Source: an uncultured Oscillospiraceae bacterium (GTDB lineage Bacteria; Bacillota; Clostridia; Oscillospirales; Ruminococcaceae). Taken from it: a stretch of 64,000 nt of DNA. The first letter of the stretch is position 1. The number at the start of each line of letters is the position of its first letter. The stretch covers positions 22,508 through 86,507 of the forward strand of contig CAJTQM010000004.1 of the NCBI GenBank assembly GCA_910578255.1. The letters run 5' to 3'. The translations under genes and the position numbers were made by a program. A model generated the notes under the pieces. It saw nothing but the letters and a program-made list of their open reading frames with translations, was not told where the DNA came from and made no database searches. Positions 4,121 to 43,255 of the stretch are shown here, in pieces.

Positions 4121-4126
4121 AAGCGC

Positions 4127-4153
4127 TTTGGTTTCCAGCCACAAGGCCGATAA
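4127..4153 (+). promoter_or_regulatory. Sigma-28 type promoter for fliD
   Basis: TTTGGTTT (4127-4134), 11 bases, then GCCGATAA (4146-4153), which is identical to the classical sigma-28 -10 element. Transcription would begin near 4160. This leaves almost no leader for an ATG at 4164 and favours GTG 4191 as the fliD start. Confidence 0.75.
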
Positions 4154-7181: not shown

Positions 7182-7571
7182 ATGACGCTGAATGCTTATC
7201 AGAATGCATATCAGAAATACCAGCAGCAATCTGTAACGACGATGACCCAAGGGGAAATGCTGATTAAGCTGTATGATGGGATCGTTAAGCAGCTCAACGC
7301 GGTGAAGCAGTTTAACGATGCAAAGGATTATGGGATGGCGAACATCGCTTCGCAAAAGGCGCAGCAGATCATCCAGCATCTGGACTCCACGCTGAACTTT
7401 AAATATGAGATTTCCAACAATCTGAGCGCTTTGTACGAATATTTTAACCATCAGCTTGTTCAGGCGAATCTGCACAAGGATAACGCCATCGTTGACGAGG
7501 TGCTTTCGATGGTCTGCGACCTGCGGGAAACGTTTATCCAGGCGGATAAAAATGCCAGAGGAGCCAATTAG
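7182..7571 (+). CDS. fliS: Flagellin export chaperone FliS
   Basis: FliS binds the C-terminal helix of newly made flagellin and prevents early polymerisation. The 129-residue product has the family pattern: NAYQNAYQKYQQQSVTTMTQ at the start, then GEMLIKLYDGIVKQLN and the later helices through LRETFIQADKNA. A good ribosome site (AACGAGGTG) lies 6 bases ahead. It is co-transcribed with fliD, as in most Firmicutes. No fliT follows it, which supports the gene upstream of fliD as the FliT equivalent. Confidence 0.95.
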   Translation: MTLNAYQNAYQKYQQQSVTTMTQGEMLIKLYDGIVKQLNAVKQFNDAKDYGMANIASQKAQQIIQHLDSTLNFKYEISNNLSALYEYFNHQLVQANLHKDNAIVDEVLSMVCDLRETFIQADKNARGAN

Positions 7572-7663
7572 CCGTCTTTGTTTTTGCGGCGTCCGGATTT
7601 CGTTTCTGTGATTTTTCTTAAGGTGTATTTGCGGTTTATTATGTGGAGGAGCGCTATTGTTTT

Positions 7664-8032
7664 ATGCCAGGACATAACTTATCGGGAACACAAAAAGAAA
7701 ATGGACAGATTCACGCCAAAATGGCGTCTCCTCTGACAGAAACAAGCTTCTATATTCTTCTGTCCCTGAAGGAAGGGCCCAGGCATGGCTATGAGATGAT
7801 CCAATGGGTTAGAAAGTTTACGGACGGCGAGGTGGAGTTACAGGGCGGGACGGTGTACAACTGTCTTTTGCGCATGGAGCGGGAGGGACTGGTCAGTATG
7901 GTCCGGGAAGAAACCCGCCGCAAGTACTATGCGCTTACCGAACAAGGGGAGACGGTGCTTCATCTTGAATGTATGCGCTTGGAGCGGATGTATGAAAACA
8001 GCAAAAACCTGCCATGGAAGGGAAAAAGATAG
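7664..8032 (+). CDS. PadR family transcriptional regulator
   Basis: A 122-residue winged-helix protein. The PadR core is clear: LTETSFYILLSLKEGPRHGY, then GGTVYNCLLRMEREGLVSMV (recognition helix and start of the wing) and RRKYYALTEQGE. After it comes only a short helix, so it is a PadR-s1 type dimer. ATG 7664 is used, behind GGAGGAG with a long 12-base spacer; an in-frame GTG at 7643 overlaps that site. It sits between fliS and the surface-protein operon. Regulation of that operon is possible but not shown. Confidence 0.85.
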   Translation: MPGHNLSGTQKENGQIHAKMASPLTETSFYILLSLKEGPRHGYEMIQWVRKFTDGEVELQGGTVYNCLLRMEREGLVSMVREETRRKYYALTEQGETVLHLECMRLERMYENSKNLPWKGKR

Positions 8033-8071
8033 GCTTTTTGCGAAAAAAGGATCCTTTTTATAAGGAAAAGG

Positions 8072-8122
8072 AAGCCAGCGACTGCGTTATGGGATATGAC
8101 GGTGATTCGCTGGCTTTTTCTT
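8072..8122 (+). terminator. Rho-independent terminator after the padR gene
   Basis: Ten-base complementary arms (starting at 8072 and ending about 8116, core GCCAGCGA/TCGCTGGC) enclose a 25-base loop and are followed by TTTTTCTTTT. Confidence 0.65.
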
Positions 8123-8179
8123 TTGGCAGAAAAAGAAAATAAAAGGGGGATTTTGGAAGGGGTATTTTTTTCGTAACGC

Positions 8180-8206
8180 TTTAGTTTCATCATTGCCTGA
8201 CGAATA
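8180..8206 (+). promoter_or_regulatory. Sigma-28 type promoter for the surface-protein/sortase operon
   Basis: TTTAGTTT (8180-8187), 11 bases, GACGAATA (8199-8206). The flagellin gene has TTTAGTTT-N11-AACGAATA at 15928-15954, the same -35 octamer, spacing and seven of eight -10 bases. This shared form argues for transcription by the same sigma factor. Confidence 0.6.
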
Positions 8207-8402
8207 TAAAATGAGTAGGAAAGGTATATGCTGATCCGGCTTTGGAAAATGGGCCGCGCTGTCATGGAAAACTGGAAAAACAGCGCATAGAAAGGCTTTA
8301 TCCGCCCGGATGAGGGGTATATCCGCCGAATTTCTTCTACATCGGCGTAACAGGGGGCTGCTTTTTCCAGTTGGCGGTCCGGGATGCAAATCGGAGGTTA
8401 CA
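8207..8402 (+). other. Structured untranslated leader, no recognised riboswitch
   Basis: About 190 bases separate the promoter from the start at 8403. Two hairpins are visible: arms GCGCTGT/ACAGCGC (8256-8286) and CGCCGA/TCGGCG (8324-8347). I looked for cyclic-di-GMP (GEMM) riboswitch core motifs and did not find them. The ribosome site CGGAGG is at 8392-8397. Confidence 0.4.
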
Positions 8403-11400
8403 ATGAAATTCAGAAAGATTCAATCCGTTTTATTGGCGGCAGCGATGGCCTTTACCATTTTGCCGCTGGGTTCCATACAGGCTTTGGCCGCTGCGACCAA
8501 GCCGACAACCCCTACGACCACCAAGCCGGTCCTTTCCTTTGAAAAAGGGGATGACGGGGACTCGGGTAAGGCTTCGATTGTTACAGGGCGAAGCATTGAT
8601 ATTTTGGAAACCTTCCCCGGCACGGTGACTTTTGTGCGGGAGAGTATGACCATTAAAAACAACGCCGAGGGCGGCAGCTATAACGCGGGTATTACAGTCA
8701 ACAAGGACTCAATCTCGGTGGCTGAGGCGTTTAATCCGGGCGCGGGTACCGAAGGAGGTTCTTATACGCCGGAGAGCGATCCGGCGACCAAGGGCGACTT
8801 CAACGTGACCGGAAACTATTATACCGTAACCGCTGAAGGCGTTTTGTGGGAAGAGAATACAGCCAGTGGCGCGAAGGCCACCGGTTATGTCCGGTCGGAT
8901 ACGCCTTCGGCTATTACCATGCTCAGTTCCATTACGCTCAGATGTACCTCGGCGGAAAAGCTGAACCAGGAGCCGGGATTTGAGGTGGTGCCGGACAGCG
9001 CCAGCGGCTCGCTGGAAAAGTTTGAGGGCGGCGATGTAGGTGTCATCAGCTATACCCAGGACCCCAAAAAGCAAAAAGAAATCCGTCTGGCGATTCAAAA
9101 GGGCAACTATCGAATTGAATTGACCTTAAACCCGAAATTGCAGTACAGCTTTGAGACAGACGACAAAGGCAACCAGATTCTGGTGGACGATGGAACGGGA
9201 AACAAGGTCCCGGTTCCGAAGGAGACGGATAACTTTGTCCGCGAGGGAACCACCTTCCGGCTGGATTTCCAGCTTCCCCAGTCCAACCCGATTATGCTGA
9301 CGGTGTACACCCCCCAGGCGGCGATGAACGAGGTTGAGACAAGGGTGGAAAACAGCGCTGGTTCCCGGCTGACCGACAGCGACAGAAAAGAAATCGACTG
9401 GGAAAAGCTGACCGACGCCCAGAAGGAAAAGCTTTACGCTTATATGCTCAGCGCCAACAACGATTTTGGCTATATTACCGGCAACTTTATGCTGCGCCAG
9501 TATATTCGCGAGTTTAACGCCCGGTTTAAAATCGAGTGGGAATGGAGGCCGGCAGACCCGGCGGACCAGAATGCGATTATAAAAGAGGGAACCAATACCG
9601 AATGGCAGCAGATGACGGTTACGGCCCAGGAGGACGATATTACCGGCACGCTGGAAGCGACGGTTTATTACGAAACCAAGGAGGGCAGCGGCGTTTGGCA
9701 GAAATCCAACACTGGCGCCATATCCAAGCCGGTGACCATTCGGGGCCGCGGCAAGCTGGTAGGTGTGACCCAGGTGCAGGAGATCGGTGAGAGCGGGACG
9801 AAAAGATACCCTGTCGCCGACCCGGACGCGCCGGAGGATGAGAAAACCACCGATCTGCCGGGCATCAAAACGCTGGACGCCTACAAGGGCAACGTCCCGG
9901 GGCTTGACATTCATCCGGTGGGCCCGTATCAGTATGATTTGCAGCTGAACATGGGCGCCAAAAATGGTGCCGCCAAATATGCCAGCGTTACCGTAGACGG
10001 CAAGGACGACGTGGCAAAGAATTCGGTGGTGCTGCGGACCTGGACCGGATCAGATACGCCGAGGGATTATACGCCGGGGGCGGAAATTTTCAATCCCCAA
10101 ACGGTATTGAGCAGCGAAACGCCGGGACTTGTCAACCTGTCGGTGATCGCCCAGCAGCTGCCGCCAAAGGCCGGGCCGCAGCAGGTGACGCTGACCTTCC
10201 GTTTCTTTGTGCAGGACCGTAACGGCCAGATTGTGCCCAGCTCTGAAAAGTTTTCGATTACCATCAACGTGCGGGACAGTTCCCCCAGCCAGGACAGTTC
10301 GCTGACGGCGCTGGAGATCCGCGACCAGGAGAATGAGAAGATCGAGTATCCCTTTGCTTCGGATCAGCTTTCTTATACCCAGAATACCACCGGAACCGTC
10401 CATATTCCGTGGAAATCGGAGGAGATCACCCTGACGCCGTTTGTCAACAGCGACTGGGGCCGGGACAAACCGATGAGCCTTACCTGGTATGACAGCAGCG
10501 GCAAACAAATCGGCGGCCCGGAGGAGATATTCGACGGCCAAAAGAGCGTCGCCATCCCGTTCGAAAAGGCAAACAGTCTGGTGAAGCTGAAGGTCCTGGT
10601 AAAATGCGAGGATCCGCGGGAGACTTATTGGTCCACCTACGAGCTGGATGTGATTCGGGATCTGCCCAGCGACGACGCTACCTTAAAGTCGCTCGGCATC
10701 TATTTCGAGGACGACAGCGAAATGGCAAACAACCTGATTTCCAATTTTGATCCGGCGGAAACGGAATACAGCATCGAGGTTCCCTATTCCACCAACCGGC
10801 TGCGGATTCGGGCGGAAAAGAACCACAAGCGGGCGAAGGGTCCGACGATTACGCCGGAGCTGGTGGGAAATAATCAGTACGACAAGGATCTGCAGTGGCT
10901 GGATGGTCTGAAGACAAGGTTTACCGAGGCGACGGACGGTATAGTGGATGTGACCTTTGAGATGCTGGCGGAAGACGGCGTGACCACCCGCACCTACACG
11001 GTACATATGCGCAGGCTGGATCCCAATAACGATCCGACCCTGAGCGGACTGCTGGTAGGCAATGCGGATGAGGAGAACGTCCCTTACGAGCCGGGCTTTA
11101 AGGCGGATACGCTTACCTATACGGCGGATATTCCGTACCAGACCAAACAGATCAAGCTGAACATCACGCCGACGGATTTAAATGTGTCCAACATCCAGAT
11201 TTATTCGCTGAACAAGGACCACCTTGTGTTCGAGATGAGCCAGGGTCAGGTGAAAGCCGGCGCGTGGACCTCGGCCATGGATGTTCTGCCCATTGACGAT
11301 GACACGATTTTGCGTGTTGGCCATCACACCTTCTACATTGTAGTGACGGCGGAAAATGAGACGGATACCCAGGAATACGAACTGCGGGTGCGCAGAGCCG

Positions 11401-13046
11401 AGCCCAGTGACGACGCTTTGTTAAAGTCCCTGGAATTGCAGGATCAGGACGGGAACAAGATTAAGACCTTTGGTTTCCATCCGGACGAGACCAGTTATAG
11501 TTTAAAAGTTCCTTACGAGACCAACGGGGTCAGCTTTACGCCCAATACCAATCATATGTGGGCCACCGTTCAGATCAATGAGGGGACGCAGATGGACATA
11601 GTGAGGCCGTATGTCATTGCCAGCGGCAAAACCTCCAAGGTCTTTAAACTCAACGATCCGGGCAATCCTAAGGAGTTTCAGGTAGTCATTACGGCGGAAG
11701 ACGGAGAAACCCAGAAGACATACAATATTTCCATCGACAGAGAGCCGCCCAGCAGCGACGCCCGGTTAAAAGGGCTGAAGGTAGATAATGCGGAGGAATT
11801 TAGTCCAGTTTTCGTCTCCAATGAGACCGATTACTCTGCGACCATTCCGGAAGGGGTCCAAGGGGCGATCATTACGGCAACGGTCAACCAGCCGGGCGCG
11901 ACGATCCGGATTGGCTATGTGTTGAGCGACGGAAGCTTTCAGGTGATTCAGGCGGCAGAAAGCGGGAAGCCTTCCGATATGATTGAAATCATTGAGGTAA
12001 ATCAAACGATTGGCGTTGAGGTTACGGCCCAGGACGGCGAAACCAAAATCATTTATAAGATCAACTTTACCAACGAAAACCTTGTCGAAAAGACCAACAA
12101 CGCCGATCTGCGGTCTTTGGTTGTGAACAAGGGGCAGATGACGCCGGACTTCCAGGCGGCGGTGACCGAATATGAGGTGGCCGTAACCGAGGATACCTGG
12201 TCGGTGGATATCATCCCGCGGGTGGCCGATCCGCTGGCAACGATGCGGGTGCTGGCGGGAACTAAGGAAATCGGTGACTACAACGGCAACTATGCACTGG
12301 CGCTGGTGGACGGGGAAAACGCCGTGACCATCGAGGTCACCTCTCCGGACGGGACGACAGTGAAGAATTACAGCCTGAAGATTTACCGCAACGAAGAGGG
12401 AAAACTGAAAAATCTGACCCCGCTGGAAGCGGAGCAGGTGGACTATAAGAATTCAGACAACGTGATCACAGTGATGATCAGCGAGTATCCGCGGGTTGGC
12501 GCCAGCGTCTTTAATACGCTGCGGGATTATCCGGAAAAGACGATCGTCTTCCAGGGAAATGACTATTCTTTGGAATTTAAAGCGTCGGATATCGACCGGG
12601 TTGTGCCGCAAAAAACAGTTTACGACTTTAGAATGTCCTTTGACTCGCCGGATTCGTCGGATATTTACAGTGAGATCGATTCCTATCAGGGCAACGGCGA
12701 CATTATCAACCGGGCGGTCTTTGTTTACTTCGAGGACGGCTCCAGCGACGATATGCTTCCGCTGCCGGGTCCTGCGGTTCTGCATTTGAACCTTGGCAAC
12801 AAATATGGAAGTCAAACGCTGTACTGGCACTACTACAACCGGGCGAGAGAACGGATTGATTATTACGGAACGATCAGAAGCAATAAACAGGGGACGGTTG
12901 CGGTTCGGATTGACCATTTTTCCACCTACATTGTCACGCCGTTCCATCGCATTGTCGGCTCGGAGGATTTGTCCAGTTCCATTGACGCGCTGGGCGCCGG
13001 TGGCAAGACCAATCCATATACTGGTTTGCGGGAGGTAAGATTTTGA
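8403..13046 (+). CDS. Large secreted protein with cadherin-like beta-sandwich repeats
   Basis: A 1547-residue protein with a signal peptide (MKFRKIQSVLLAAAMAFTIL, then LGSIQALAA). A Thr/Pro stretch and an N-terminal region of unknown fold reach to about residue 625. Six cadherin-like beta-sandwich units follow, starting near residues 630, 756, 876, 1002, 1117 and 1233, each with a D-(S/A/P)-x-L-x-x-L opening and a Y-x-(L/V/I) closing strand. The C-terminal region ends in KTNPYTGLREVRF. NPYTG resembles a class B sortase motif, but no hydrophobic helix follows. ATG 8403 has a good CGGAGG site. The stop overlaps the sortase start by 4 bp, so the sortase is the likely partner. Role unknown; adhesin or flagellum-associated surface layer are guesses. 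Confidence 0.8.
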   Translation: MKFRKIQSVLLAAAMAFTILPLGSIQALAAATKPTTPTTTKPVLSFEKGDDGDSGKASIVTGRSIDILETFPGTVTFVRESMTIKNNAEGGSYNAGITVNKDSISVAEAFNPGAGTEGGSYTPESDPATKGDFNVTGNYYTVTAEGVLWEENTASGAKATGYVRSDTPSAITMLSSITLRCTSAEKLNQEPGFEVVPDSASGSLEKFEGGDVGVISYTQDPKKQKEIRLAIQKGNYRIELTLNPKLQYSFETDDKGNQILVDDGTGNKVPVPKETDNFVREGTTFRLDFQLPQSNPIMLTVYTPQAAMNEVETRVENSAGSRLTDSDRKEIDWEKLTDAQKEKLYAYMLSANNDFGYITGNFMLRQYIREFNARFKIEWEWRPADPADQNAIIKEGTNTEWQQMTVTAQEDDITGTLEATVYYETKEGSGVWQKSNTGAISKPVTIRGRGKLVGVTQVQEIGESGTKRYPVADPDAPEDEKTTDLPGIKTLDAYKGNVPGLDIHPVGPYQYDLQLNMGAKNGAAKYASVTVDGKDDVAKNSVVLRTWTGSDTPRDYTPGAEIFNPQTVLSSETPGLVNLSVIAQQLPPKAGPQQVTLTFRFFVQDRNGQIVPSSEKFSITINVRDSSPSQDSSLTALEIRDQENEKIEYPFASDQLSYTQNTTGTVHIPWKSEEITLTPFVNSDWGRDKPMSLTWYDSSGKQIGGPEEIFDGQKSVAIPFEKANSLVKLKVLVKCEDPRETYWSTYELDVIRDLPSDDATLKSLGIYFEDDSEMANNLISNFDPAETEYSIEVPYSTNRLRIRAEKNHKRAKGPTITPELVGNNQYDKDLQWLDGLKTRFTEATDGIVDVTFEMLAEDGVTTRTYTVHMRRLDPNNDPTLSGLLVGNADEENVPYEPGFKADTLTYTADIPYQTKQIKLNITPTDLNVSNIQIYSLNKDHLVFEMSQGQVKAGAWTSAMDVLPIDDDTILRVGHHTFYIVVTAENETDTQEYELRVRRAEPSDDALLKSLELQDQDGNKIKTFGFHPDETSYSLKVPYETNGVSFTPNTNHMWATVQINEGTQMDIVRPYVIASGKTSKVFKLNDPGNPKEFQVVITAEDGETQKTYNISIDREPPSSDARLKGLKVDNAEEFSPVFVSNETDYSATIPEGVQGAIITATVNQPGATIRIGYVLSDGSFQVIQAAESGKPSDMIEIIEVNQTIGVEVTAQDGETKIIYKINFTNENLVEKTNNADLRSLVVNKGQMTPDFQAAVTEYEVAVTEDTWSVDIIPRVADPLATMRVLAGTKEIGDYNGNYALALVDGENAVTIEVTSPDGTTVKNYSLKIYRNEEGKLKNLTPLEAEQVDYKNSDNVITVMISEYPRVGASVFNTLRDYPEKTIVFQGNDYSLEFKASDIDRVVPQKTVYDFRMSFDSPDSSDIYSEIDSYQGNGDIINRAVFVYFEDGSSDDMLPLPGPAVLHLNLGNKYGSQTLYWHYYNRARERIDYYGTIRSNKQGTVAVRIDHFSTYIVTPFHRIVGSEDLSSSIDALGAGGKTNPYTGLREVRF

Positions 13047-13864
13047 AAAAATTCCTGCTGGTACTTGGGATAGTGTTGACATTCGCGCTGCTGTTGGGAG
13101 CGGCCGCTTATGTTCTCCTTTTCATGGAGGACCCAGTCCCAGAGGAGGTAGGACAATCTGCCAGTATCGCCGAGAAGGTCAGCAAACCGAAAAACGCCGA
13201 TGTGCGCGACCAGGCAGAAACCCAGGCGGATATCCTGGAAATGCTGGACTACGAAACCCGCAAGAATCGGGATACGGTGGGCTGGCTGGTGGTGCCGGGA
13301 ACCAAGATTAACAACAGCGTTCTCCAGTCGTATGACAATGCGGTTTATCTGCGGCAGGATGAGCGGCGGGAATACGACCTGTACGGCTGCTATTTTGTGG
13401 ATTATGAGTGCTCGGTGGGCTCTCGGGAGGAATTGAGCCCCAACACCATCATCTATGGGCACAGCGACCTAAAGGACAATCCGGACGGACCGAGATTTTC
13501 CCAGTTGTACCATTTTACCGACGCGGATTTTGCCCGGGAAACGCCGGTGATACAATTTTCCACGCTGGACGGTTTTATGTACTGGGAGGTTTTTGCGGTA
13601 TTGTATACGGAACTGAACGACAGCTTTATTTCGCCGGATCCGCCGGAGGGCATTGACCGGATGGCGGCGGCGGCGATGGAAAAATCCCTATACGACTATG
13701 GTGTGGAGGTCGGGCCGCAGGACCATGTCCTGCTCCTTTCCACCTGCACTGGCAGCTATGGCGCCAACGATACGAATCACCGGTTTGTCGTGCTGGCAAA
13801 GCTTTTGCCGGAGGACGCCGAGATTCCCACCCAGGCGCAGCTGGAGGTTCGAACAGAAAGTTAG
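13043..13864 (+). CDS. srtB: Class B sortase
   Basis: A membrane-anchored transpeptidase that links surface proteins to the wall or to each other. Residues 4-28 form the N-terminal membrane anchor, typical of class B. The catalytic residues are visible: His140 (YGHSD), Cys235 (LSTCTGSY) and Arg247 (HRFVVLAKL). The length of 273 and the long spacing between His and Cys fit SrtB. Translation starts at TTG 13043, overlapping the stop of the surface protein and preceded by GGGAGG, so it is coupled to its probable substrate. The gene continues closely into flgB (12 bp), putting rod genes in the same transcript. Confidence 0.92.
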   Translation: MKKFLLVLGIVLTFALLLGAAAYVLLFMEDPVPEEVGQSASIAEKVSKPKNADVRDQAETQADILEMLDYETRKNRDTVGWLVVPGTKINNSVLQSYDNAVYLRQDERREYDLYGCYFVDYECSVGSREELSPNTIIYGHSDLKDNPDGPRFSQLYHFTDADFARETPVIQFSTLDGFMYWEVFAVLYTELNDSFISPDPPEGIDRMAAAAMEKSLYDYGVEVGPQDHVLLLSTCTGSYGANDTNHRFVVLAKLLPEDAEIPTQAQLEVRTES

Positions 13865-13876
13865 GAGGAAAAACCA

Positions 13877-14224
13877 ATGTTTTTTGATTCCAAGCAGTTT
13901 TCCGTTATGCGCGGCGGCTTAGAGGGTCTGGCCATTCAGCAGCAGACGATTCTGCACAATCTGGCAAACCTGGACACGCCGGGCTATAAGGCCCGGTCGG
14001 TAAGCTTTGAGAATGTATTGAAGGATTCCAAAAGCCGGTACGATCTGAAGGCCTACATCTACACCGACGACGCGACCTCGATCCGGCCGGATGGAAATAA
14101 CGTGGACGCCGATACCGAGAGTTTGAAGCTTTATCAAAACTATGTACAGCAGCTGTATCTGTACCAGAAAATCAGCGGACAGTTCAGCAATCTTCGGTAT
14201 GTGATGAACCAGTCGGCCAAATAG
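13877..14224 (+). CDS. flgB: Flagellar proximal rod protein FlgB
   Basis: FlgB is the first rod component, built on the MS ring/FliE in the envelope. The 115-residue product begins with the N-terminal helix and rod signature (QTILHNLANLDTPGYKARSV) and ends in the C-terminal helix (LYQNYVQQLYLYQKISGQ). The length is close to the family's. It has an AGGAGG site and lies 18 bp before flgC. Unlike the common flgB-flgC-fliE order, fliE is about 8 kb away at the head of another operon. Confidence 0.93.
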   Translation: MFFDSKQFSVMRGGLEGLAIQQQTILHNLANLDTPGYKARSVSFENVLKDSKSRYDLKAYIYTDDATSIRPDGNNVDADTESLKLYQNYVQQLYLYQKISGQFSNLRYVMNQSAK

Positions 14225-14242
14225 CACAAAGGAGGGCTTTTC

Positions 14243-14677
14243 ATGTCTTTACTTGATTCGATGAACATTACCGGCTCTGCTCTGACCGCAGAACGCTTTC
14301 GCATGGATGTTGCTTTGCAGAATCTGGCCAACGTAAACAACACCCGCACCGCTGCCGGCGAGCCCTATCGCCGCAAGCAGGTGATCTTCCAGGAACGGGG
14401 GGTCAGCTTTGCCAGCGCGCTGCGGGAAGAAGAGGCCCGGGTAAAAGGCGGCGGTGTCCGGGTGACCCGGGTGGTCGAGAGCCAGCGGGACTTTATCCCG
14501 GTGTACGATCCGGCTCATCCCGACGCCAATGAGGAGGGCTACGTCATGATGCCAAATGTGGACGCCACCGAGGAGCGGATCGACCTGATGGCCGCCTCCA
14601 ATTCCTACGAAGCGAACCTGACCGCCCTTTCGCTGGTGAAATCTTTGGCGCTGAAGGCGCTGGAAATCGGCAAATAG
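14243..14677 (+). CDS. flgC: Flagellar proximal rod protein FlgC
   Basis: FlgC continues the rod above FlgB. The 144-residue protein shows the signature ALQNLANVNNTRTAAGEPYR near the N-terminus, the GVRVTRVVESQRDFIPVYDP segment of the family, and the C-terminal helix IDLMAASNSYEANLTALSLV. AAAGGAGGG precedes ATG 14243. It is followed after 72 bp by the MotA-like gene rather than fliE. Confidence 0.95.
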   Translation: MSLLDSMNITGSALTAERFRMDVALQNLANVNNTRTAAGEPYRRKQVIFQERGVSFASALREEEARVKGGGVRVTRVVESQRDFIPVYDPAHPDANEEGYVMMPNVDATEERIDLMAASNSYEANLTALSLVKSLALKALEIGK

Positions 14678-14749
14678 CAGGTACGGACACGTTAAGGCGT
14701 TTGCCCAAAGACGGGCCGGCGGCCAGATTTGCCAAGACGGAGGATTTTT

Positions 14750-15202
14750 ATGCAGTATACAATGAGCGCCGAATATTTCGCTCAGCAGATTCAATGCACC
14801 CGCGAAGGAAAACACGAGACGTTGCCGACGGTCCGCCAGCTGGTAGAACTGGCCTTTGCGGCGCGCAGCGAGGGACTGCTGAAAATGGACGATATGGTCA
14901 ACGACTACGCAAGATTCCCGGACCCGTTTTTGCGCAAGGCGGTGAACCTTGTGGTGGAGGTCGCCAATCCCGACGCCATTCGTCAGGTGCTTTATAACTT
15001 TATCCTCTCGTCGAAACGGGTTGCCAACAATAATCAGTTTCTCAATCAGGTGGTCATCACCGAGACAATGCTGGCCATCAGCCGGTCGGATGATTTGGAC
15101 TACGTGTTCACCTACCTCGTTCCCTCTTTTTTTGGGGTGGAGTACGAGCGGGAAGTGGTGAACGTTTACCGCAACTACAAAAAACAGCTGTTGGGAAGAT
15201 AA
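14750..15202 (+). CDS. Soluble protein resembling the MotA cytoplasmic region
   Basis: A 150-residue protein without membrane segments. Residues about 25-80 (VELAFAARSEGLLKMDDMVN, then DPFLRKAVNLVVEVANPDAI) align with the cytoplasmic loop of MotA encoded at 32427-33248 (VDLAKEARINGLLSLESKLE, DPFLKNSMMLVVDAVEPEKV): the LA-AR--GLL, DPFL and LVV-----P blocks match. The four MotA transmembrane helices are absent and the rest is helical. It may bind FliG or the stator, or be a diverged remnant kept for another use. The start is ATG 14750, behind GGAGG with a 6-base spacer. It sits between flgC and comFB in a flagellar operon. The similarity is by eye. Confidence 0.6.
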   Translation: MQYTMSAEYFAQQIQCTREGKHETLPTVRQLVELAFAARSEGLLKMDDMVNDYARFPDPFLRKAVNLVVEVANPDAIRQVLYNFILSSKRVANNNQFLNQVVITETMLAISRSDDLDYVFTYLVPSFFGVEYEREVVNVYRNYKKQLLGR

Positions 15203-15238
15203 CACCCCATCTGCCACGAGTCAGAAAGGATGATCGGG

Positions 15239-15502
15239 ATGTCGGATTACAAAAACGTAATGGAAGATTTGATCGAGGAGGAGTTTGACAGCCTGCAGCC
15301 CACCTTGGACTGCTGCACCTGCGAGGCCTGCCGCAGCGATATGATCGCTTATGCTTTGAATCAGCTGCCGCCCAAATACGTAGCTACCCGCAAGGGGGAG
15401 GTCTACTCCAAAACCTTTATTTTGCGCAATCAGCACCGGACCGACATTATGGCCGCGCTGACCAAGGCTGCCAGCGTTGTAAAGGCCAATCCCCGTCACT
15501 AG
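15239..15502 (+). CDS. comFB: ComFB family protein
   Basis: An 87-residue protein with the ComFB pattern: an acidic helix (NVMEDLIEEEFDSLQPTLDC), a Cys cluster CCTCEACRSD, then MIAYALNQLPPKYVATRKGE. The Cys cluster suggests metal binding. The family was named from a competence operon in Bacillus; members have more recently been reported to bind cyclic dinucleotides and affect motility, which would suit this location. ATG 15239 is preferred over ATG 15230 because AGAAAGG ends right at the latter. It is the last gene of the surface-protein/rod operon and is followed by a terminator at 15635. Confidence 0.85.
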   Translation: MSDYKNVMEDLIEEEFDSLQPTLDCCTCEACRSDMIAYALNQLPPKYVATRKGEVYSKTFILRNQHRTDIMAALTKAASVVKANPRH

Positions 15503-15634
15503 TTTTGCGTAAAACGGCTGTGGAGCCGCGAAAAAAGCGTCGGCTGACGTTTGAACCGGCGCGGCGTATACCAAAAATACACAAAAGAGGCGCTGTCAGC
15601 AGACGGTTTGTCCTCATGATTTAGTCAAAGAATT

Positions 15635-15673
15635 TGACCGCAACATTTGGAGGATGGGCGGTCATTTTCTTTT
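15635..15673 (+). terminator. Terminator after comFB
   Basis: TGACCGC (15635-15641) pairs with GCGGTCA (15658-15664) and is followed by TTTTCTTTT. Confidence 0.65.
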
Positions 15674-15927
15674 GCAAATCTGGCAAACCAGCGGTTACAA
15701 CGCCCAGGATCACCATGCAAAAAAGCCCTTCGTATGGAACCGTGCGCATCACCTGCTTTCAAAAGGGGAGTGACAAACCGCCTGCCGAATGCGACAGCGC
15801 CAAAAATATTTTAGAAAATTGGTTTGAACAATGCAGGACAGCCCGCGCCGTTTTCCTGCGAAAACCGCTTTCCACGGCCGTTTTTTGCGTCCTGCTCGAA
15901 TTCGAGAAAAAATTTGCCAGAATCCGC
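15674..15927 (+). other. Non-coding stretch upstream of the flagellin promoter
   Basis: No convincing gene or ribosome site was seen. A 7-bp long-range inverted repeat (GCAGGAC near 15832 with GTCCTGC near 15889) is the only structure noted; its meaning is unclear. Confidence 0.4.
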
Positions 15928-15954
15928 TTTAGTTTTTGGCAGGAGCAACGAATA
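15928..15954 (+). promoter_or_regulatory. Sigma-28 type promoter of the flagellin gene
   Basis: TTTAGTTT (15928-15935), 11 bases, AACGAATA (15947-15954). The -35 is six of eight to TAAAGTTT and the spacing is exact; the -10 keeps CGA. It is nearly identical to the element at 8180-8206. It predicts a leader of about 117 bases. Confidence 0.6.
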
Positions 15955-15982
15955 TTGTTGTTGAAAGCAAATTTGGTTTTCG

Positions 15983-16017
15983 GTTCCGGCCCTTGCAGGG
16001 CCCGCGGGGGGCGGAAC
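15983..16017 (+). promoter_or_regulatory. Hairpin in the flagellin mRNA leader
   Basis: An outer stem GTTCCG/CGGAAC encloses an inner GCCC-TTGCA-GGGC hairpin. No T run follows, so it is more likely a stabilising or regulatory leader element than a terminator. Confidence 0.5.
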
Positions 16018-16036
16018 TTGAAAATAAACAAAGCGT

Positions 16037-16071
16037 GGCTTCAAGGATGAGGCCGCATATTACAAGGAGGT
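16037..16071 (+). promoter_or_regulatory. Two CsrA-type binding sites in the flagellin leader
   Basis: Site 1 is a 6-bp hairpin (arms 16037-16042 and 16049-16054, one G-U pair) presenting loop AAGGAU; its CAAGGAUG core matches the CsrA consensus RUACARGGAUGU. Site 2, UUACAAGGAGGU at 16060-16071, matches ten of twelve and contains the ribosome site. The GGA cores are 21 bases apart, which would let one CsrA dimer bridge them. Confidence 0.75.
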
Positions 16072-16077
16072 TTCACC

Positions 16078-18111
16078 ATGGGAATGGTAGTAAGAACAAA
16101 CACAATGGCACTGAACGCATACCGTCAGCTGGGCATGAACAACAGCGCGGTATCTAAATCTCTGGAAAAACTGTCTTCCGGCTTCCGCATTAACCGCGCT
16201 GGCGACGACGCCGCTGGCCTGGCGATCAGCGAGAAGATGAAAGCGCAGATCAAAGGCTTGGAGACTGCTTCTGCCAACGCGCAGGACGGCATCAGCCTGA
16301 TCCAGACTGCTGAGGGGAACCTCAACGAAGTACACGATATGCTCAACCGTATGGTAGAGCTGGCAGGCAAATCCGCCAACGGCACCTACACCTCTCAGGA
16401 GCGTAAGGCGCTGCAGGATGAGGTTGACTCTCTGCTTTCCGAAATTGATCGTATCAGCCAGTCCGCTAACTTCAACGGCACCAAGCTGCTCAACGGCACT
16501 ATGGGTCTGAACAACGAGGGAATCGGCATCGGCGCTTCTAGCGAGTATGTTGCCGCTGGCGAGAAATCTATGACGGTTGACCCATTGCATGCCAGCGCTT
16601 CTGGCTCTGAAGTAAAACCGTCCTTCACCGTTGACTTTGCTGATTTCTCTGTAGCATATGATAAAGCAGGTGCGGCTGCGAAATCTGGTGCGGATGTTGG
16701 TCTGTCCATTGGCGGCCAGGCGGTTAAGATGTGGGATGGTGCCGACAGCTTTGATGCTACTCTCAAAAGCGAAGGTAATACTAATGATACTGCCCATACG
16801 ATTGACGGCGCGGCGCTGCAAACATTGCTGACTACTGCTGGCGCTGTCCAAATTGGTGACTATGTGTATAAAGCAGAAGCTGGTACTGGTGAAAATGCTG
16901 TAAAATTCACCTTCCTTGGCAAAGCAGAAGCAACACCTACCAACAATCCGACTGCTGACACGAAGGTTCCGGAAGATCTGGAAATCCCGAAAGGCAACCT
17001 CACTGTTTCGCTCACCAACGAATCTGGTGACAAGACCGAGACCAATCGTATTGACTGCCCGGTATACGACATTAAAGACCCCGCTGCCGGCGCAGATCCG
17101 GTTCGTGCAGGCGCGACCACAACTTTGAGCGCTGACATGATCAAGGCTGGCAACACCCTGACCATCGGCAAGACGGTTTTCACCTTCAAAGAAGGTAAAT
17201 TGCCTACTACTTTGGCTGATAACTCTGGCGCTAACCAGGATATTTATGTAGACAGCAGCCTGAGCGCTGACGAGCAGATGGAAATGGTAACCGCTCAGCT
17301 GTCCCATATGTCCGCGAAGATTGAAAAAGATGTGAACGGCACGAAGACGGAGTTCACCTTTAACATCGGTCGTAGCGCTGACGGCAAGAGCATTGAGATT
17401 GAGGAAAAAGTTCAGACCAATGCAGCTAACCTTGGTAAATTCACCGCAGATGAATTGAAAGCTGCGTTCAAAGTAAGCACCCAGGAAGCGATGGCCAGCA
17501 CCGAGATCACCTTTAAGGACAACGATAAGCTGGCCACCAAAGAGACCATTTTGGTTGACGGCAAAGAGATCGAGTTCGAAAAGGGCAAAGATACCGCTGA
17601 GACGATGGCAAACCTGCAGGCGAAGCTGGGTGATTATACTGTTACCGTTAACGGCAACAAGATGACCATCGCTGCAAAAACCTCTGCTGGTACTGCTCCG
17701 AAGATCGCTGGCGCTGGCCTGACCCTGCAAATTGGCGATACCGCTGACAGCTACAACAAGATGAATGTCAAGGTAGCTGACATGAGCACTAAGGGTCTGG
17801 GCATCAATGGTCTGTCCATCATGAACGAGGTTTCCGCCTCCGAAGCGATTGACACCATCAAGAATGCGATCAACGACGTTTCTACTGCTCGTGCAGGTAT
17901 GGGCGCTCTGCAGAACCGCTTAGAGCACACCATCAACAACTTGGATGTTGCGGTAGAGAATCTGAGCGCTGCAAACAGCCGTATCCGTGACACTGATATG
18001 GCCAAAGAGATGATGAACTACACCAAGATGAACGTACTGGTACAGTCCGCTCAGGCTATGTTGGCCCAGGCGAACCAGCAGCCTCAGTCCGTACTGCAGC
18101 TGCTCCAGTAA
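16078..18111 (+). CDS. fliC: Flagellin
   Basis: The filament subunit, exported by the flagellar apparatus. The N-terminal D0/D1 region is clear (LEKLSSGFRINRAGDDAAGL, then the AISEKMKAQIKGLETA stretch), as is the C-terminus (NLSAANSRIRDTDMAKEMMN through QANQQPQSVLQLLQ), which closely resembles Bacillus Hag where FliW and FliS bind. Residues from about 145 to 590 form a large variable outer domain, giving 677 residues against about 275-500 in many relatives. The segment NRMVELA corresponds to the TLR5-contact helix of enterobacterial flagellin and keeps its Arg and Leu. Strong AAGGAGG site 7 bases before ATG. Controlled by a sigma-28 type promoter and probably CsrA/FliW. Confidence 0.97.
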   Translation: MGMVVRTNTMALNAYRQLGMNNSAVSKSLEKLSSGFRINRAGDDAAGLAISEKMKAQIKGLETASANAQDGISLIQTAEGNLNEVHDMLNRMVELAGKSANGTYTSQERKALQDEVDSLLSEIDRISQSANFNGTKLLNGTMGLNNEGIGIGASSEYVAAGEKSMTVDPLHASASGSEVKPSFTVDFADFSVAYDKAGAAAKSGADVGLSIGGQAVKMWDGADSFDATLKSEGNTNDTAHTIDGAALQTLLTTAGAVQIGDYVYKAEAGTGENAVKFTFLGKAEATPTNNPTADTKVPEDLEIPKGNLTVSLTNESGDKTETNRIDCPVYDIKDPAAGADPVRAGATTTLSADMIKAGNTLTIGKTVFTFKEGKLPTTLADNSGANQDIYVDSSLSADEQMEMVTAQLSHMSAKIEKDVNGTKTEFTFNIGRSADGKSIEIEEKVQTNAANLGKFTADELKAAFKVSTQEAMASTEITFKDNDKLATKETILVDGKEIEFEKGKDTAETMANLQAKLGDYTVTVNGNKMTIAAKTSAGTAPKIAGAGLTLQIGDTADSYNKMNVKVADMSTKGLGINGLSIMNEVSASEAIDTIKNAINDVSTARAGMGALQNRLEHTINNLDVAVENLSAANSRIRDTDMAKEMMNYTKMNVLVQSAQAMLAQANQQPQSVLQLLQ

Positions 18112-18176
18112 GCATCCGGTTCAAATTCTCATCACGCTTTCGCCGTTTTGGCGGCAAATCACAAATGGTGAGAGAA

Positions 18177-18206
18177 GGGGGAAGCGAAAGCTTCCCTCTT
18201 TTTTTT
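18177..18206 (+). terminator. Strong terminator after flagellin
   Basis: GGGAAGC (18179-18185), a GAAA tetraloop, GCTTCCC (18190-18196), then TC and eight Ts. A smaller CGCC-GTTTT-GGCG hairpin precedes it near 18141-18153. Confidence 0.88.
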
Positions 18207-18225
18207 CGAAAGGGGGAGGTAGACC

Positions 18226-18774
18226 GTGGGGGTTGGAACGGTCCAAAACTATGTAAAAATGATGTCGATGCAGCAAAAATGGCAGCAGCGGCAGCAGGGG
18301 ATCGCCCTGGAACAGCAGACGGCCAATCTGCTGGAAAGCGCCGAAAAATCCGGATCGGACCAGGCGAACAGCGCCCGGCGGTCGGGCATCGCGGCAAAGC
18401 TGAAGGCAGGCAAGCGGCTTTCCCCCGGGGATTTGGCGTGGCTACAGCAGAACGATCCGGCGCTGTACATCCGGGCCAAGCAGATCGAGTTGGAGCGGTC
18501 GCAGCAAAAAAGCGCTTTGCAGCTGTGCAAAAGCCGGGAGCAGGCGGGGCAGGTGTACCGGCGGTTTTCCCAGTGGGCGGCCTGCGACGCGGTGACGGCG
18601 GTGCGCAAGGCTTCTACCGTGTCGGAACGGATGGAGATTTCGGAAAGCGGGCAGATGCGGCAGTCGGCGCTGCGCGAGGAGTACAGCCTGTTCAAGCGGA
18701 CCACAAAATGGAAGAAGCTTCCGGTCCGCAAGCCGGTGAAAAACCGGTTCGGGCGGTGGGGGCGGCTGGCGTAG
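18226..18774 (+). CDS. Unknown 182-residue basic protein downstream of flagellin
   Basis: I do not recognise a named family. The protein starts at GTG 18226 behind GGGGGAGG and is hydrophilic, Gln-rich at the start (QQKWQQRQQGIALEQQ) and strongly basic at the end (KWKKLPVRKPVKNRFGRWGR). The middle has RRSGIAAKLKAGKRLSPGDL then AWLQQNDPALYIRAKQIE; I have an impression of similar segments in proteins of other Clostridia, but cannot confirm it. No signal peptide or membrane helix. Its ribosome site begins just 6 bases after the T run of the flagellin terminator and no separate promoter is visible, so it probably gets a small share of flagellin transcription by readthrough. A terminator follows. 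Confidence 0.7.
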   Translation: MGVGTVQNYVKMMSMQQKWQQRQQGIALEQQTANLLESAEKSGSDQANSARRSGIAAKLKAGKRLSPGDLAWLQQNDPALYIRAKQIELERSQQKSALQLCKSREQAGQVYRRFSQWAACDAVTAVRKASTVSERMEISESGQMRQSALREEYSLFKRTTKWKKLPVRKPVKNRFGRWGRLA

Positions 18775-18788
18775 TCCGGCAAAAAGAG

Positions 18789-18828
18789 CGGCGAGACGGG
18801 GCCAGAGGGACCGTCCTGCCGTTTTTTT
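18789..18828 (+). terminator. Terminator after the 182-residue gene
   Basis: Arms 18789-18799 and 18811-18821 pair as CGGC/GCCG plus GACGG/CCGTC around a 2 x 2 internal loop, followed by seven Ts. Confidence 0.8.
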
Positions 18829-18861
18829 GCATAAATTTTAAAAAAATCCGCCAAAAAGGAC

Positions 18862-18888
18862 TAGTCTTTTCTAAAATCATGTCGATAA
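18862..18888 (+). promoter_or_regulatory. Sigma-28 type promoter of the chemoreceptor gene
   Basis: TAGTCTTT (18862-18869), 11 bases, GTCGATAA (18881-18888), seven of eight to the sigma-28 -10. The leader to the start at 19059 is about 165 bases and contains AAGGA-GGGA-TCCTT followed by a T run near 19000-19021. Confidence 0.7.
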
Positions 18889-19058
18889 AGATTTATGATG
18901 GGAGTTTGAATGAGGTAGACTGTAGAGAATTGCTCTTGCTCATTTCGAGGTTCCCTTGGATTACAACTGTAGATTTTCTCATTCCTTTATTTTTGGTAAA
19001 AGGAGGGATCCTTGTTTTTTTGCAACCATAATTTGAAAAAATGAGAGGAGCCAAATCT

Positions 19059-20810
19059 ATGCTTAAGAACATGAAAATAAAGATGAGCCTACTTTTGGGT
19101 TTCGGTATCACGCTGGTGCTTTCGGTGGCCATCGTTGTTGTTACGCTGTTTATGATGAGCGGACAGAAAACCAACTTCAGCAATGCAATTAGCCAAGAGG
19201 GACGCGCTACTTCTATCGTTTTAGAGTGCCGATTAAATGTACGCAATTCCATGGTCAACGGCTATGAGATGCTGGTGCGCCAAAACGCTTCGGTGACTCG
19301 GGAGAAGGAAGCTGCCATCAACAGCTATCTGGATGGCGTCGACAGCCTGCTTTCCGAGCTGCGCACGATTTACCCGCTGCGCGACAACCGGGTGGAGGAG
19401 TACGCGCAGCATATCAGCAAATGGCGCAGCCTGATGTCGCAGCTGGTCGGCGAGGTTGAGGCTGGCGATACAAACGGTGCAGTTGCGCTGCTGACCGGAG
19501 ACATCGCCGATACGCTGAGCGCCATGACCGATCTCACCGCGGGCATCAGCAATGACTTGAGCGCGGCGGAGAGCGAGGTCGTTTCCAAGGCAGAGCGGGA
19601 TAGCCAGATTACTATTCTTGTGATCGCAGCGGTTTTGGTGATTGCCGTTATCTTCGTATTGATGCTTTCGACCAAAATCATCAAGAATATTACGATTCCT
19701 ACCGAGGAGGTCCACAATGCGCTGGTTGGCTACAGCGAGGGCAATCTGACGGTTCCAGTAAACTTCGAAAGCACCAACGAACTGGGCGAAATGTGCGAAG
19801 CGTTGCGCAAGAGCCAGCGGATTTTGGGTGGCGTCATCGAGGACGAGGCCTATCTGTTGGAGAAAATGGCCAACGGCGATTTCAATGTCAAGAGCAAGGA
19901 TACTTCTTTGTATGTAGGTGCGCTCAGTTCTGTACTTGAGTCTTTGAGAGGACTGAAAAAGAATCTCAGCGGCACTTTGATGCAGATCCATCAGGCGGCG
20001 GAGCAGGTTTCCGCCGGATCCGATCAGGTTTCTGCCGGCGCGCAAGCGCTTTCTCAGGGCGCTACCGAGCAGGCGTCTTCTGTCCAGGAGTTGGCTGCCA
20101 CGATTACCAAAATTTCTGAGCAGATCGCTTCTAACGCAGAGAGCGCGCAGAAAACCAGCAAGATGGCCAACGAGGTCGGCGAAGAGATTACTCGCAGCAA
20201 TGAGCAGATGAAGGCGATGAACGCGGCCATGAGCGAGATCACCGCTAAGTCTCAGGAAATCGGGAAGATTATCAAAACGATTGAGGATATTGCGTTCCAG
20301 ACCAATATTCTTGCGCTGAACGCTGCGGTTGAGGCAGCTCGCGCAGGTGCTGCCGGTAAGGGCTTTGCGGTTGTGGCCAACGAGGTTCGTAGTCTGGCCA
20401 GCAAATCTGCGGATGCTTCGAAGAATACGGCTGCTTTAATTGAGAATTCTCTGCAAGCTGTTGAGAACGGCGACCGGATTGCTACCGAGACGGCGCAGGC
20501 TTTGGAAAAGGTTGTAGAGGGTGCAGCGGAGATCACGTCGGTTATCGACCAGATCGCTTCCGCTTCTCAGCAGCAGGCTGACGCGGTGGTACAGATCACC
20601 GAAGGTATGGATCAGATTTCCAGCGTTATTCAGACCAACTCGGCTACTTCTGAGGAGTCTGCGGCTGCCAGTGAGGAATTGTCCGGTCAGGCAAATATGC
20701 TGAAGGAGTTGGTAGGCGGCTTTAAGTTGGAGGATGGCGGCGATACCTCTATGTCGGATTCGCTTTCTTACCAGGTCGTTCCGGATTCCTTTGGGAGTGA
20801 CAAATATTAA
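19059..20810 (+). CDS. Methyl-accepting chemotaxis protein
   Basis: A membrane chemoreceptor of 583 residues. TM1 is at about residues 8-30, an extracellular four-helix-bundle-type sensor extends to about 180, TM2 is near 184-204, and HAMP follows to about 258. The signalling domain covers about 300-560, with the conserved tip [20 protein letters not shown] and [15 protein letters not shown]. The start at ATG 19059 ([14 protein letters not shown]) uses AGAGGAG; ATG 19041 precedes that site. There is no C-terminal CheR/CheB pentapeptide, and the tail ends PDSFGSDKY. The ligand cannot be told. The sigma-28 type promoter places it with the late motility genes. Confidence 0.96.
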
Positions 20811-20847
20811 GTTCGCGCCGATTGTTTTACATAGAAAGGTGTGATAC

Positions 20848-21036
20848 GTGATGGATGTTTTGGCTGCAGGAGCGTTAAGCATTGCCATGCATCAGACACA
20901 ATTGGAGCAATATGCAAATATTGCTGTCATGAAAAAAGCAATGAATCTCCAAGAGTCGCAGGCAGCTGCCTTAATTGAGGATTTGCAGCAGTCGGTTCCA
21001 TTCCCGGGAGATCACCAGTTGGATGTTTTAGCTTAA
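20848..21036 (+). CDS. YjfB family putative motility protein
   Basis: A 62-residue protein of the YjfB motility family: ALSIAMHQTQLEQYANIAVM followed by KKAMNLQESQAAALIEDLQQ and a short C-terminal tail ending LDVLA. In Bacillus yjfB is controlled by the flagellar sigma factor; its molecular function is not known. GTG 20848 is immediately followed by ATG 20851, and either may be used behind AGAAAGG. It lies 37 bp after the chemoreceptor gene and is probably co-transcribed with it. A GCCGATTG at 20817 resembles a sigma-28 -10 but lacks a matching -35. Confidence 0.85.
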   Translation: MMDVLAAGALSIAMHQTQLEQYANIAVMKKAMNLQESQAAALIEDLQQSVPFPGDHQLDVLA

Positions 21037-21041
21037 GGATC

Positions 21042-21090
21042 AAGGCATTGGTGAGTGCCCATGAACTGGACACTATCCAATGCCTTTTTT
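21042..21090 (+). terminator. Terminator after the YjfB-family gene
   Basis: A 10-bp stem (21042-21051 with 21077-21086) and an inner AGTG/CACT pairing are followed by a run of Ts. Confidence 0.85.
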
Positions 21091-21164
21091 CATCAAGCCT
21101 TAATACGGTTTTCTTTTCTTTCCGGCCTGCTTGCCGAAAATTTAAAATGATACGTGGTTTTTGC

Positions 21165-21193
21165 TTGCATATTAACCGATCAATTGTTATGAT
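21165..21193 (+). promoter_or_regulatory. Sigma-A type promoter of cheV
   Basis: TTGCAT (21165-21170), 17 bases, TATGAT (21188-21193). The predicted start of transcription near 21200 supports GTG 21224 as the translation start. Confidence 0.7.
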
Positions 21194-21223
21194 AAGGTAG
21201 AAGTGGAATGGGAGGGCTGTACT

Positions 21224-22141: not shown

Positions 22142-22171
22142 CTGTTTAAAATCGCTTGCAGAAACAACAGA

Positions 22172-22217
22172 AAATAAGGGAAGAGACCATCACAATGGTT
22201 TTCTTCCCTTATTTTTC
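22172..22217. terminator. Bidirectional terminator after cheV
   Basis: AATAAGGGAAGA pairs with TCTTCCCTTATT around an inner ACCA/TGGT stem; T runs are present on both strands. Confidence 0.8.
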
Positions 22218-22382
22218 TAAAAAATTCCGAAAAAATCCACAATTTTTGCAAGAATATGGTGGGAACCATTCTTCTTTTTTCCGGTGATTTCGCATTTGGC
22301 TGTTGCATAGTTTTATGTTAGGAAGAATGTGGCAAAGTTTTGGAGATTTTCTGAAAAATCATAATAAAATTGGAGTTTATGG

Positions 22383-22411
22383 TTTACAAGAGGTCATTTA
22401 TTCGCTATAAT
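22383..22411 (+). promoter_or_regulatory. Sigma-A promoter of the main fla/che operon
   Basis: TTTACA (22383-22388), exactly 17 bases, TATAAT (22406-22411). It precedes fliE by about 95 bases and is the only strong promoter seen before about 23 kb of closely packed genes. The rest of 22218-22382 is AT-rich with no feature I can name. Confidence 0.82.
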
Positions 22412-22506
22412 GTAGGAGACAATGTATGTAGTCAAAACCTATTTTGTGTTCGTTGTAAATCTCTAAGAATCTTCATATTTCATGATCAGTTTTGGAGGAC
22501 AAAAAC

Positions 22507-22809: not shown

Positions 22810-22862
22810 ACCGAAAAATAAGAAGGAAAAAAATCAGTACTTAATGGGTTGGTAAAAAGTCT

Positions 22863-42472: not shown

Positions 42473-43255
42473 GTGATATTAACAGAGTTGCAAAATGAGA
42501 AATTCACCGCTGAAGAAGCGGAACGACTTGTGCGGGTATATAAACAAAACGGTTCATTGGAACTCCGAAACCAGCTGGTGATGCACTACAGCTACATTGT
42601 AAAAGGGATTGTTTCCAAAATGGCAAACACCTTTTACAAATACGCTTCGGCGGAAGAGATGCTCAACCAGGGAATTATCGCGATTATTGACAGCTTACAG
42701 CGGTTTGAGCCGGACCGGGACGTAAAGTTTTCCACCTATGCTTTTACCAAAGTCCGTGGTTCGATTATTGATTATGTCCGCAAGCAGGATTGGCTGCCGC
42801 GGCGGGTAAGGCAGACGAATATACGAATCAACAACATTGAGCGGGAGTTGACCGCCAAGCTGGGAAGATCCCCGACCCGAGCGGAGATGGCGAAGGAAGC
42901 GGGCATGTCCCTAAAAGAGTTTGACCAATGTATGATAGAAATGTCGGGGGATAATCTCAGTTCCTTCGAGGCGCTTTTGGCGGCGCCGTCGCAGATGCAT
43001 CCTTCCACCGTGTACGGGGACGAATTCGACCCGGAACGCAACATCGACCGGCAGGAGATGAAGCAGGCGCTGATGGAAGCGATTGACTCCTTGAACGAGC
43101 AGGAGCGCACCGTTCTCTCGCTGTATTATTACGAAAATCTGACCATGAAGGAAATCGGGCAGACGATGGGAGTAAGCGAGCAGCGGATTGGGCAGATCAA
43201 TCGAAAGCTGATTAAGAAATTACGGGATAAAATGTCCCAGTACATAGGAGGTTGA
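42473..43255 (+). CDS. sigD: Flagellar RNA polymerase sigma-28 factor (SigD/FliA)
   Basis: This sigma factor directs late motility genes. The 260-residue protein has region 2 (AEEMLNQGIIAIIDSLQRFE, then the VKFSTYAFTKVRGSIIDYVR segment with the FliA/WhiG-type RGSIID), region 3 (ERELTAKLGRSPTRAEMAKE) and region 4 (YYYENLTMKEIGQTMGVSEQ, RIGQI). GTG 42473 with a GGGGGG-rich site is the start. The predicted targets in this window are the promoters at 4127, 8180, 15928 and 18862. An anti-sigma FlgM is not in the window, although flgM commonly lies just upstream of flgK. Confidence 0.96.
   Translation: MILTELQNEKFTAEEAERLVRVYKQNGSLELRNQLVMHYSYIVKGIVSKMANTFYKYASAEEMLNQGIIAIIDSLQRFEPDRDVKFSTYAFTKVRGSIIDYVRKQDWLPRRVRQTNIRINNIERELTAKLGRSPTRAEMAKEAGMSLKEFDQCMIEMSGDNLSSFEALLAAPSQMHPSTVYGDEFDPERNIDRQEMKQALMEAIDSLNEQERTVLSLYYYENLTMKEIGQTMGVSEQRIGQINRKLIKKLRDKMSQYIGG

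Follow-up and report, generated by a model that had tools for sequence, protein, structure and literature searches.

The SigD regulon of C. difficile, according to the available part of the published account (PMC3865298), comprises late flagellar genes together with the surface proteins cbpA and CD0514; in the same source flgB heads the hook-basal-body operon, has a SigA-like start and shows a less than 2-fold drop in a sigD mutant. In Eubacterium and Roseburia, flgB is located inside the flgB-fliA locus, and the accessible text of the report on these bacteria makes no mention of a sortase (PMC3720852). For the pairing of a surface protein with a sortase, the nearest precedent is, by analogy, the AbpA/SrtB system of oral streptococci. 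AbpA, as described in the available portion of that study, ends with LPKTS followed by AVK and carries no hydrophobic or charged segment, yet it is anchored by the adjoining class B sortase (PMC4974636).

We analysed a stretch of 64,000 nucleotides (hereafter the window; its features whose coordinates are written below with two dots lie on the + strand), which shares several properties with these systems, as far as they are covered by the available text of the three sources. It resembles the C. difficile regulon in its TAAA...CG-type promoters, in FlgM (found here in relatives) and in the predicted control of a surface protein along with late flagellar genes (PMC3865298), the Eubacterium/Roseburia flgB-fliA locus in its clostridial flagellar gene content and sigma28-type flagellin promoters (PMC3720852), and the AbpA/SrtB system in the location of a class B(-like) sortase beside its substrate and in a pentapeptide followed by a very short tail (PMC4974636). 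Unlike in C. difficile, flgBC of the window are placed behind a sigma28-type site, after a surface protein and a sortase. Unlike in Eubacterium and Roseburia, the main operon has fliE as its first gene, preceded by a sigmaA-type site, and flgBC stand apart with the sortase pair. The pair differs from AbpA/SrtB in its NPxTG-like motif, in a Cadherin-like substrate on a scale of 1.5 thousand residues and in its flagellar linkage; the NCBIfam model matching the AbpA/SrtB system (NF040525) gave 50.6 in the window, far under the cut-off of 200.

Surface proteins within a flagellar sigma regulon (C. difficile) and a short-tail signal combined with a class B sortase (AbpA) are thus already known. Our literature search (titles and abstracts, with most subscription journals outside its coverage) found no link between a sortase and the flagellum, and the literature searched likewise gave no case of such a pair that is linked to flgBC in the members of a family and preceded by a sigma28-type site. 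The linkage of the surface protein/sortase pair to flgBC behind a sigma28-type site is a new combination of known kinds.

We consider it likely that positions 8179-8206 are a sigma28 (FliA/SigD)-type promoter, from which one predicted transcript of about 7.4 kb would cover the genes of the surface protein, the class B-like sortase, flgB, flgC, a MotA-loop-like protein and comFB. This reading is favoured because of the site itself, its likeness to fliC and fliD sites, its conservation, an upstream hairpin, the tight spacing of the genes and the linkage to flgBC.

The promoter-like site and its counterparts in the window

An earlier note on this DNA had claimed that the sites at 8180 and 15928 are almost the same, which was borne out to the letter: TTTAGTTT-N11-GACGAATA (8180-8206) and TTTAGTTT-N11-AACGAATA (15928-15954) are both exact. 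No other place on either strand of the window has the pattern TTTAGTTT-N12-ACGAATA. The likeness continues to CGCTTTAGTTT-N12-ACGAATAT, which with up to 3 mismatches is matched by these two sites only (0.01 expected), the significance of this figure arising partly by construction, since the pattern was derived from the same two sites. Duplication of a single promoter (8179 vs 15927) was considered and rejected, as the spacers differ.

A scan of the window with the generic sigma28 consensus (TAAAGTTT-N11-GCCGATAA) placed the 8180 site at rank 218 and the 15928 site at rank 786. The former differs from this consensus in 5 of 16 letters and does not qualify as a site of the generic form. The generic consensus was rejected as a yardstick, many better chance matches being located within genes of the window; it serves poorly here because the family's own fliC site deviates from it even more (rank 786). 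With a looser pattern (2 mismatches), 10 matches were obtained against 5.2 expected, a number reached by 2 of 100 shuffles. As the generic consensus does not discriminate, it is the family-specific motif, as seen in relatives, that carries the case.

The matrix describing this motif was trained on 16 sites, all picked by eye upstream of fliC or fliD in the window and nine relatives. The flagellin sites came from the window and from 8 of the 17 flagellin upstream regions that were complete, the fliD sites from 7 of 9 regions. No such site was recognised by eye in nine flagellin upstream regions of relatives, at least four of which (L087, L096, L098 and L100) are, again by eye, preceded by a csrA-like frame. 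The flagellin site of one relative (G415) has N12 spacing, and it was one base out of register in the test that left out a locus's own genome.

When the window sites were left out of the matrix and all window positions on both strands were scored, the site before the surface operon (8179..8206; CTTTAGTTT-N11-GACGAATA) came first, followed by the promoter-like sites of fliD (4126..4153; CTTTGGTTT-N11-GCCGATAA), flagellin (15927..15954; CTTTAGTTT-N11-AACGAATA) and cheV (21113..21140; CTTTTCTTT-N11-GCCGAAAA; score 20.5). These four scored at least 20.5 bits and the fifth match 16.2. With a score of 25.5 and N11 spacing, the site at 8179 has the form of a sigma28 promoter of the family's fliC/fliD type. 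It was third (15927 sixth) with a matrix built from fliD sites only, while a fliC-only matrix placed 8179 and 15927 first and second. Identical spacing had also been claimed for the fliD and chemoreceptor promoters. The spacing itself was confirmed for both (fliD at 4127, GCCGATAA; chemoreceptor at 18862, TAGTCTTT and GTCGATAA), but the chemoreceptor site (18861..18888; CTAGTCTTT-N11-GTCGATAA) proved weak, being ninth with the fliD-only matrix and outside the top 22 of the other two matrix lists in the window scan.

Conservation of the site in related genomes

With the own genome excluded from training, the region upstream of the surface gene scored above dinucleotide shuffles in all eight loci (p 0.008 in L002 and, in the other seven, at its floor of 0.002); the loci come from relatives, some near-identical even in their sites, so that these p-values are not independent. 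Before the held-out test, a strict threshold was set at score 12 and p<0.01. It was reached in both held-out genomes with the gene order described below (G721 and G751), which have in common the site CTTGTGTTT-N11-GTCGAAAA; in L133 a second, repeat-like match outscores the CTTGTGTTT-N11-GTCGAAAA site. The same matrix was applied to eight further held-out loci. Three of them (L153, L155 and L157) reached the strict threshold and two (L149 and L150) gave p of 0.025 and 0.035, while no significant site was found before the surface gene in L152 (p 0.16), L156 (p 0.52) and L151 (p 0.90). In total, 5 of 10 held-out cases reached the strict threshold and 7 of 10 had p<0.05 (5 of 8 in the second batch).

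Of the 18 testable loci overall, 15 have a sigma28-type site (p<0.05) ahead of the surface gene, with the upstream sequence otherwise different; two loci truncated upstream of this gene (L067 and L154) were excluded from the count. This conservation supports the earlier suggestion that the surface operon and flagellin have a common promoter type. The surface-gene and flagellin sites also carry the same -35/-10 variant in several of the same genomes, according to lineage: TTTAGTTT..CGAATA in the window and G415, and TTAAG..CGAATA in G001.

In G660 and G736, two genomes in which the pair follows flgBC, the surface gene lacks a preceding sigma28-type site (0 of 2; p 0.14 and 0.20). The sequence CTTTCATTT-N11-GTCGAGTA upstream of flgB in G736 scores 9.1 (p 0.31); it shares CGAGTA with the fliD site of this genome, which scores 18.7 (p 0.005).

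The predicted transcript and its gene order

Upstream of the site, the window carries fliD, fliS and then a gene of a PadR-family regulator (7664..8032; PF03551, 67.8 bits), which could be a candidate regulator of the surface operon. Between this gene and the site there is a terminator-like hairpin (8071..8117; -22.8 kcal/mol, better than all 40 shuffles) followed by a T-rich tail, which separates the operon from fliS and padR; among six loci, all but L070 have such a hairpin that folds better than each of its 40 shuffles. The frame of the 1547-aa surface protein begins at 8403, about 200 nt downstream of the site. The frames of the surface protein and the sortase overlap in all 19 loci listed (by 4 nt in the window), and flgB starts no more than 100 nt after the sortase gene in 16 of them, the other three gaps being 292, 408 and 438 nt (L153, L155 and L157).

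In the window, flgB (13877..14224; TIGR01396, 75.1 bits) and flgC (14243..14677; TIGR01395, 154.6 bits), both over cut-off and both encoding proximal rod proteins, follow after 12 nt and are separated by 18 nt. In the hairpin analysis, no terminator-like structure stood out between the sortase gene and flgC. Next comes a gene (14750..15202), located directly after flgC in most relatives that share the order of the clade, for a 150-aa protein partly resembling the loop region of MotA (MotA matches below cut-off and no Pfam match); a comFB-family gene (15230..15502; PF10719, 87.9 bits) is the last in the predicted transcript. A possible terminator after comFB (15602..15663) is weak: its -20.4 lies within the range of the shuffles (mean -6.0, minimum -32.2), some of which fold better. 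The flagellin gene (16078..18111) lies beyond it; its N-terminus is 77-94% identical to flagellin N-termini of relatives at many loci. The upstream hairpin, the overlap of the surface and sortase frames and the 12-nt gap before flgB all agree with the proposal of the earlier note that flgB and flgC may belong to this transcript, and to judge from the gene arrangement they very probably lie in the one predicted from 8179-8206.

No Rfam family reached its gathering score in the window. A leader riboswitch was rejected, as the six sub-threshold Rfam matches near 8030-8420 were all far below cut-off.

Relatives were found by means of the surface protein (L001 and L002) and subsequently with the MotA-like protein as a marker, which was present in 24 of 396 sampled family genomes at E 1e-20; among 297 genomes sampled earlier, 31 had matched at E 0.001, including 19 with values below 1e-34. 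The figures below describe this sample, selected through the MotA-like gene, and not all flagellated family members; the genus of G415 was represented by one genome only. The order surface gene-sortase-flgB-flgC is present in 19 of the 23 family members having both the marker and flgC. Where the contig reaches far enough, fliD-fliS are located upstream, their place being taken by an Hpt gene in L001 and L002. The pair stands just behind flgB-flgC-MotA-like in G660 and G736, and two genomes (G440 and G419) gave no match to the surface alignment.

The main flagellar operon of the window is headed by fliE (22507) and includes the flagellar sigma factor gene fliA (42473..43255; above cut-off for TIGR02479 with 220.4 bits). 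It contains neither flgB nor flgC, and no second flgBC was found in this operon within the window. It is preceded by a sigmaA-type site (22383..22411; TTTACA-N17-TATAAT, 11/12), with TTTACA-N17-TA(T/A)AAT present at the same position before fliE in the window, L001 and L002 (p of about 0.03 each). A sigma70 consensus scan of 7500-23000 gave 13 sites against 12.5 in shuffles and is informative for the fliE site only. A single flgC was found in 23 of 24 genomes (none in G587), and because the relatives have only this one copy, the rod genes flgBC probably follow a late-type promoter.

The surface protein and the sortase

The predicted surface protein (8403..13046) has a signal-peptide-like N-terminus and five Cadherin-like domains (PF12733), and it ends with NPYTG and the six residues LREVRF (13000-13046), with no membrane anchor. 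A classical sorting signal consists of an LPxTG-like motif, a hydrophobic span and a charged tail. The end of the window protein is not a signal of this classical kind, as it has no hydrophobic span; judged by features alone, it is of the AbpA short-tail type, with NPYTG, six residues and a sortase gene overlapping by 4 nt.

Among the best 120 of 234 homologues, 108 have xPxTG within the last 60 residues (NPxTG in 93), followed by exactly six residues in 76 of the 108. None of these 108 had a hydrophobic, TM-like stretch above threshold in the last 60 residues (17-residue test). The remaining 12 of the 120 comprise eleven with NPxT and another residue and one without such a motif. An xPxTG end was also present in 18 of the 19 loci with a frame listing, L157 being the exception. 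An order-wide search with the surface alignment matched 49 of 394 genomes, full-length only in G002 itself; the other matches were partial and confined to the Cadherin-like part.

The sortase (13043..13864) carries a PF04203 domain over cut-off (33.0 vs 26.6 bits) and the catalytic YGH, LSTC and HRF; HRF as such was not found in the sortases of L068, L070 and L072. Its best NCBIfam match is the class B model TIGR03064, at 101.9 bits under the cut-off of 153.75, and this is still the best-matching class.

Timing of rod gene expression and alternative explanations

By the usual account, flagellar genes switch on in sequence, those of the rod and hook at the start and those of the filament once the flagellar sigma factor has been released. 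FlgM was over cut-off in 7 of 11 relatives, and the usual brake on this factor is therefore probably present; weak FlgM matches in three more are unreliable, since two archaeal controls likewise match below cut-off. In relatives, the only recognised flgB and flgC copies sit behind a late-type promoter, with the genes of a large secreted protein and a sortase ahead of them. If this is true, one family of Clostridia departs from the usual order of the flagellar programme, and the sortase with its substrate would be a candidate for a partnership with the flagellum of Gram-positive bacteria.

The mechanism that we infer starts with RNA polymerase carrying FliA, which would initiate at about 8213 (range about 8212-8216) and produce one message for the surface protein, the sortase, FlgB, FlgC, the MotA-like protein and ComFB. 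As free FliA rises, the cell would make filament proteins together with the secreted giant protein, which would exit via its signal peptide, be cut by the sortase at NPYTG and be joined to the cell wall. The same switch would supply more proximal rod for further flagella. Some FliA-independent expression of flgBC is needed because rod proteins are required before the brake is lifted; a low level of such transcript, from overlapping sigmaA-type elements or read-through, would start the first flagellum. Overlapping sigmaA elements of some relatives are a candidate source, none being recognised in the window. By this arrangement flgBC would enter a positive loop favouring cells already committed to motility.

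That ordering problem would be resolved if overlapping sigmaA and sigma28 elements formed a dual promoter, making the surface protein and rod genes early genes with a late boost. In L071 a perfect TTGACA-N17-TATAAT overlaps the sigma28-type site (p 0.003), and sigmaA-like matches were also found in L072 (TGA-TATAAT, p 0.007), L150 (p 0.045), L151 (p 0.005) and L155 (p 0.010, about 1.3 kb upstream); moreover, the available text on related gut Firmicutes describes two promoters per fliC gene, one of them housekeeping (PMC3720852). However, the 5 of 18 loci with such a match (p<0.05) before the surface gene are set against 13 of 18 without, and the best match was no better than shuffles in the window (p 0.85), L068, L001, L002, L133 and L134. 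We regard a dual promoter as possible, with the balance of the evidence inclining against it. It is unlikely that transcription from the site is confined to the surface and sortase genes, with flgB-flgC transcribed from a separate promoter, unrecognised or of sigmaA type. A separate start of this kind would be consistent with the sigmaA-like sites immediately upstream of flgB in L141 (p 0.020) and L143 (p 0.015), and likewise with the wide sortase-flgB gaps of these loci (292 and 408 nt; they are the same loci as L153 and L155, from genomes G636 and G525), the site before flgB in G440, which has no pair (p 0.005), and the SigA-like start given for C. difficile flgB in the accessible part of its description (PMC3865298). 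In the scan that gave the G440 match, the flgB start was misplaced for L073, L074, L133 and L136. The window, however, leaves only 12 nt between the sortase gene and flgB, and its best sigmaA-like match upstream of flgB is weak, 348 nt away and inside the sortase gene (p 0.050).

A chance likeness of AT-rich spacer DNA, with no promoter at all, would agree with rank 218 under the generic consensus, but the first rank obtained with an independent matrix and the retention of the site in 15 of 18 loci despite otherwise different upstream sequence make it extremely improbable. The single sigma28-type promoter thus remains the reading that we prefer. A bolder proposal, to which we attach rather little credence, is that the sortase and the giant NPxTG protein form a wall part of the flagellum, a covalent collar holding or sealing the rod in thick peptidoglycan and built in step with FlgB-FlgC, and that rod synthesis has come under the late sigma factor in this family, which would confine the building of new flagella mainly to filament-making cells.

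Additional observations

The cheV-like site (21113-21140), which was absent from the list in the earlier note, is located about 60 nt upstream of a cheV-like gene (21203) encoding CheW-like and receiver domains. The gene of the 150-aa MotA-like protein usually adjoins flgC or cheV in relatives. Among the loci searched, a PadR-type gene between fliS and the surface operon was observed in the window and G415 only (L068, 3740-4135), while the ComFB-family gene of the predicted transcript is present also in L068, L070 and L071. A 288-aa frame located between the flagellin and chemoreceptor genes (18165-19031) has no NCBIfam or Pfam match.

Two close relatives carry a repeat-like inverted element, TTTTGGTTC...TCCGAAAA, in different places (L133, about 2500-2560; L134, about 10380-10420), and in both loci flgB and flgC are separated by an additional 400-1170 nt. 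On a metagenome contig (L067, 3701-4555), the sortase frame is split in two.
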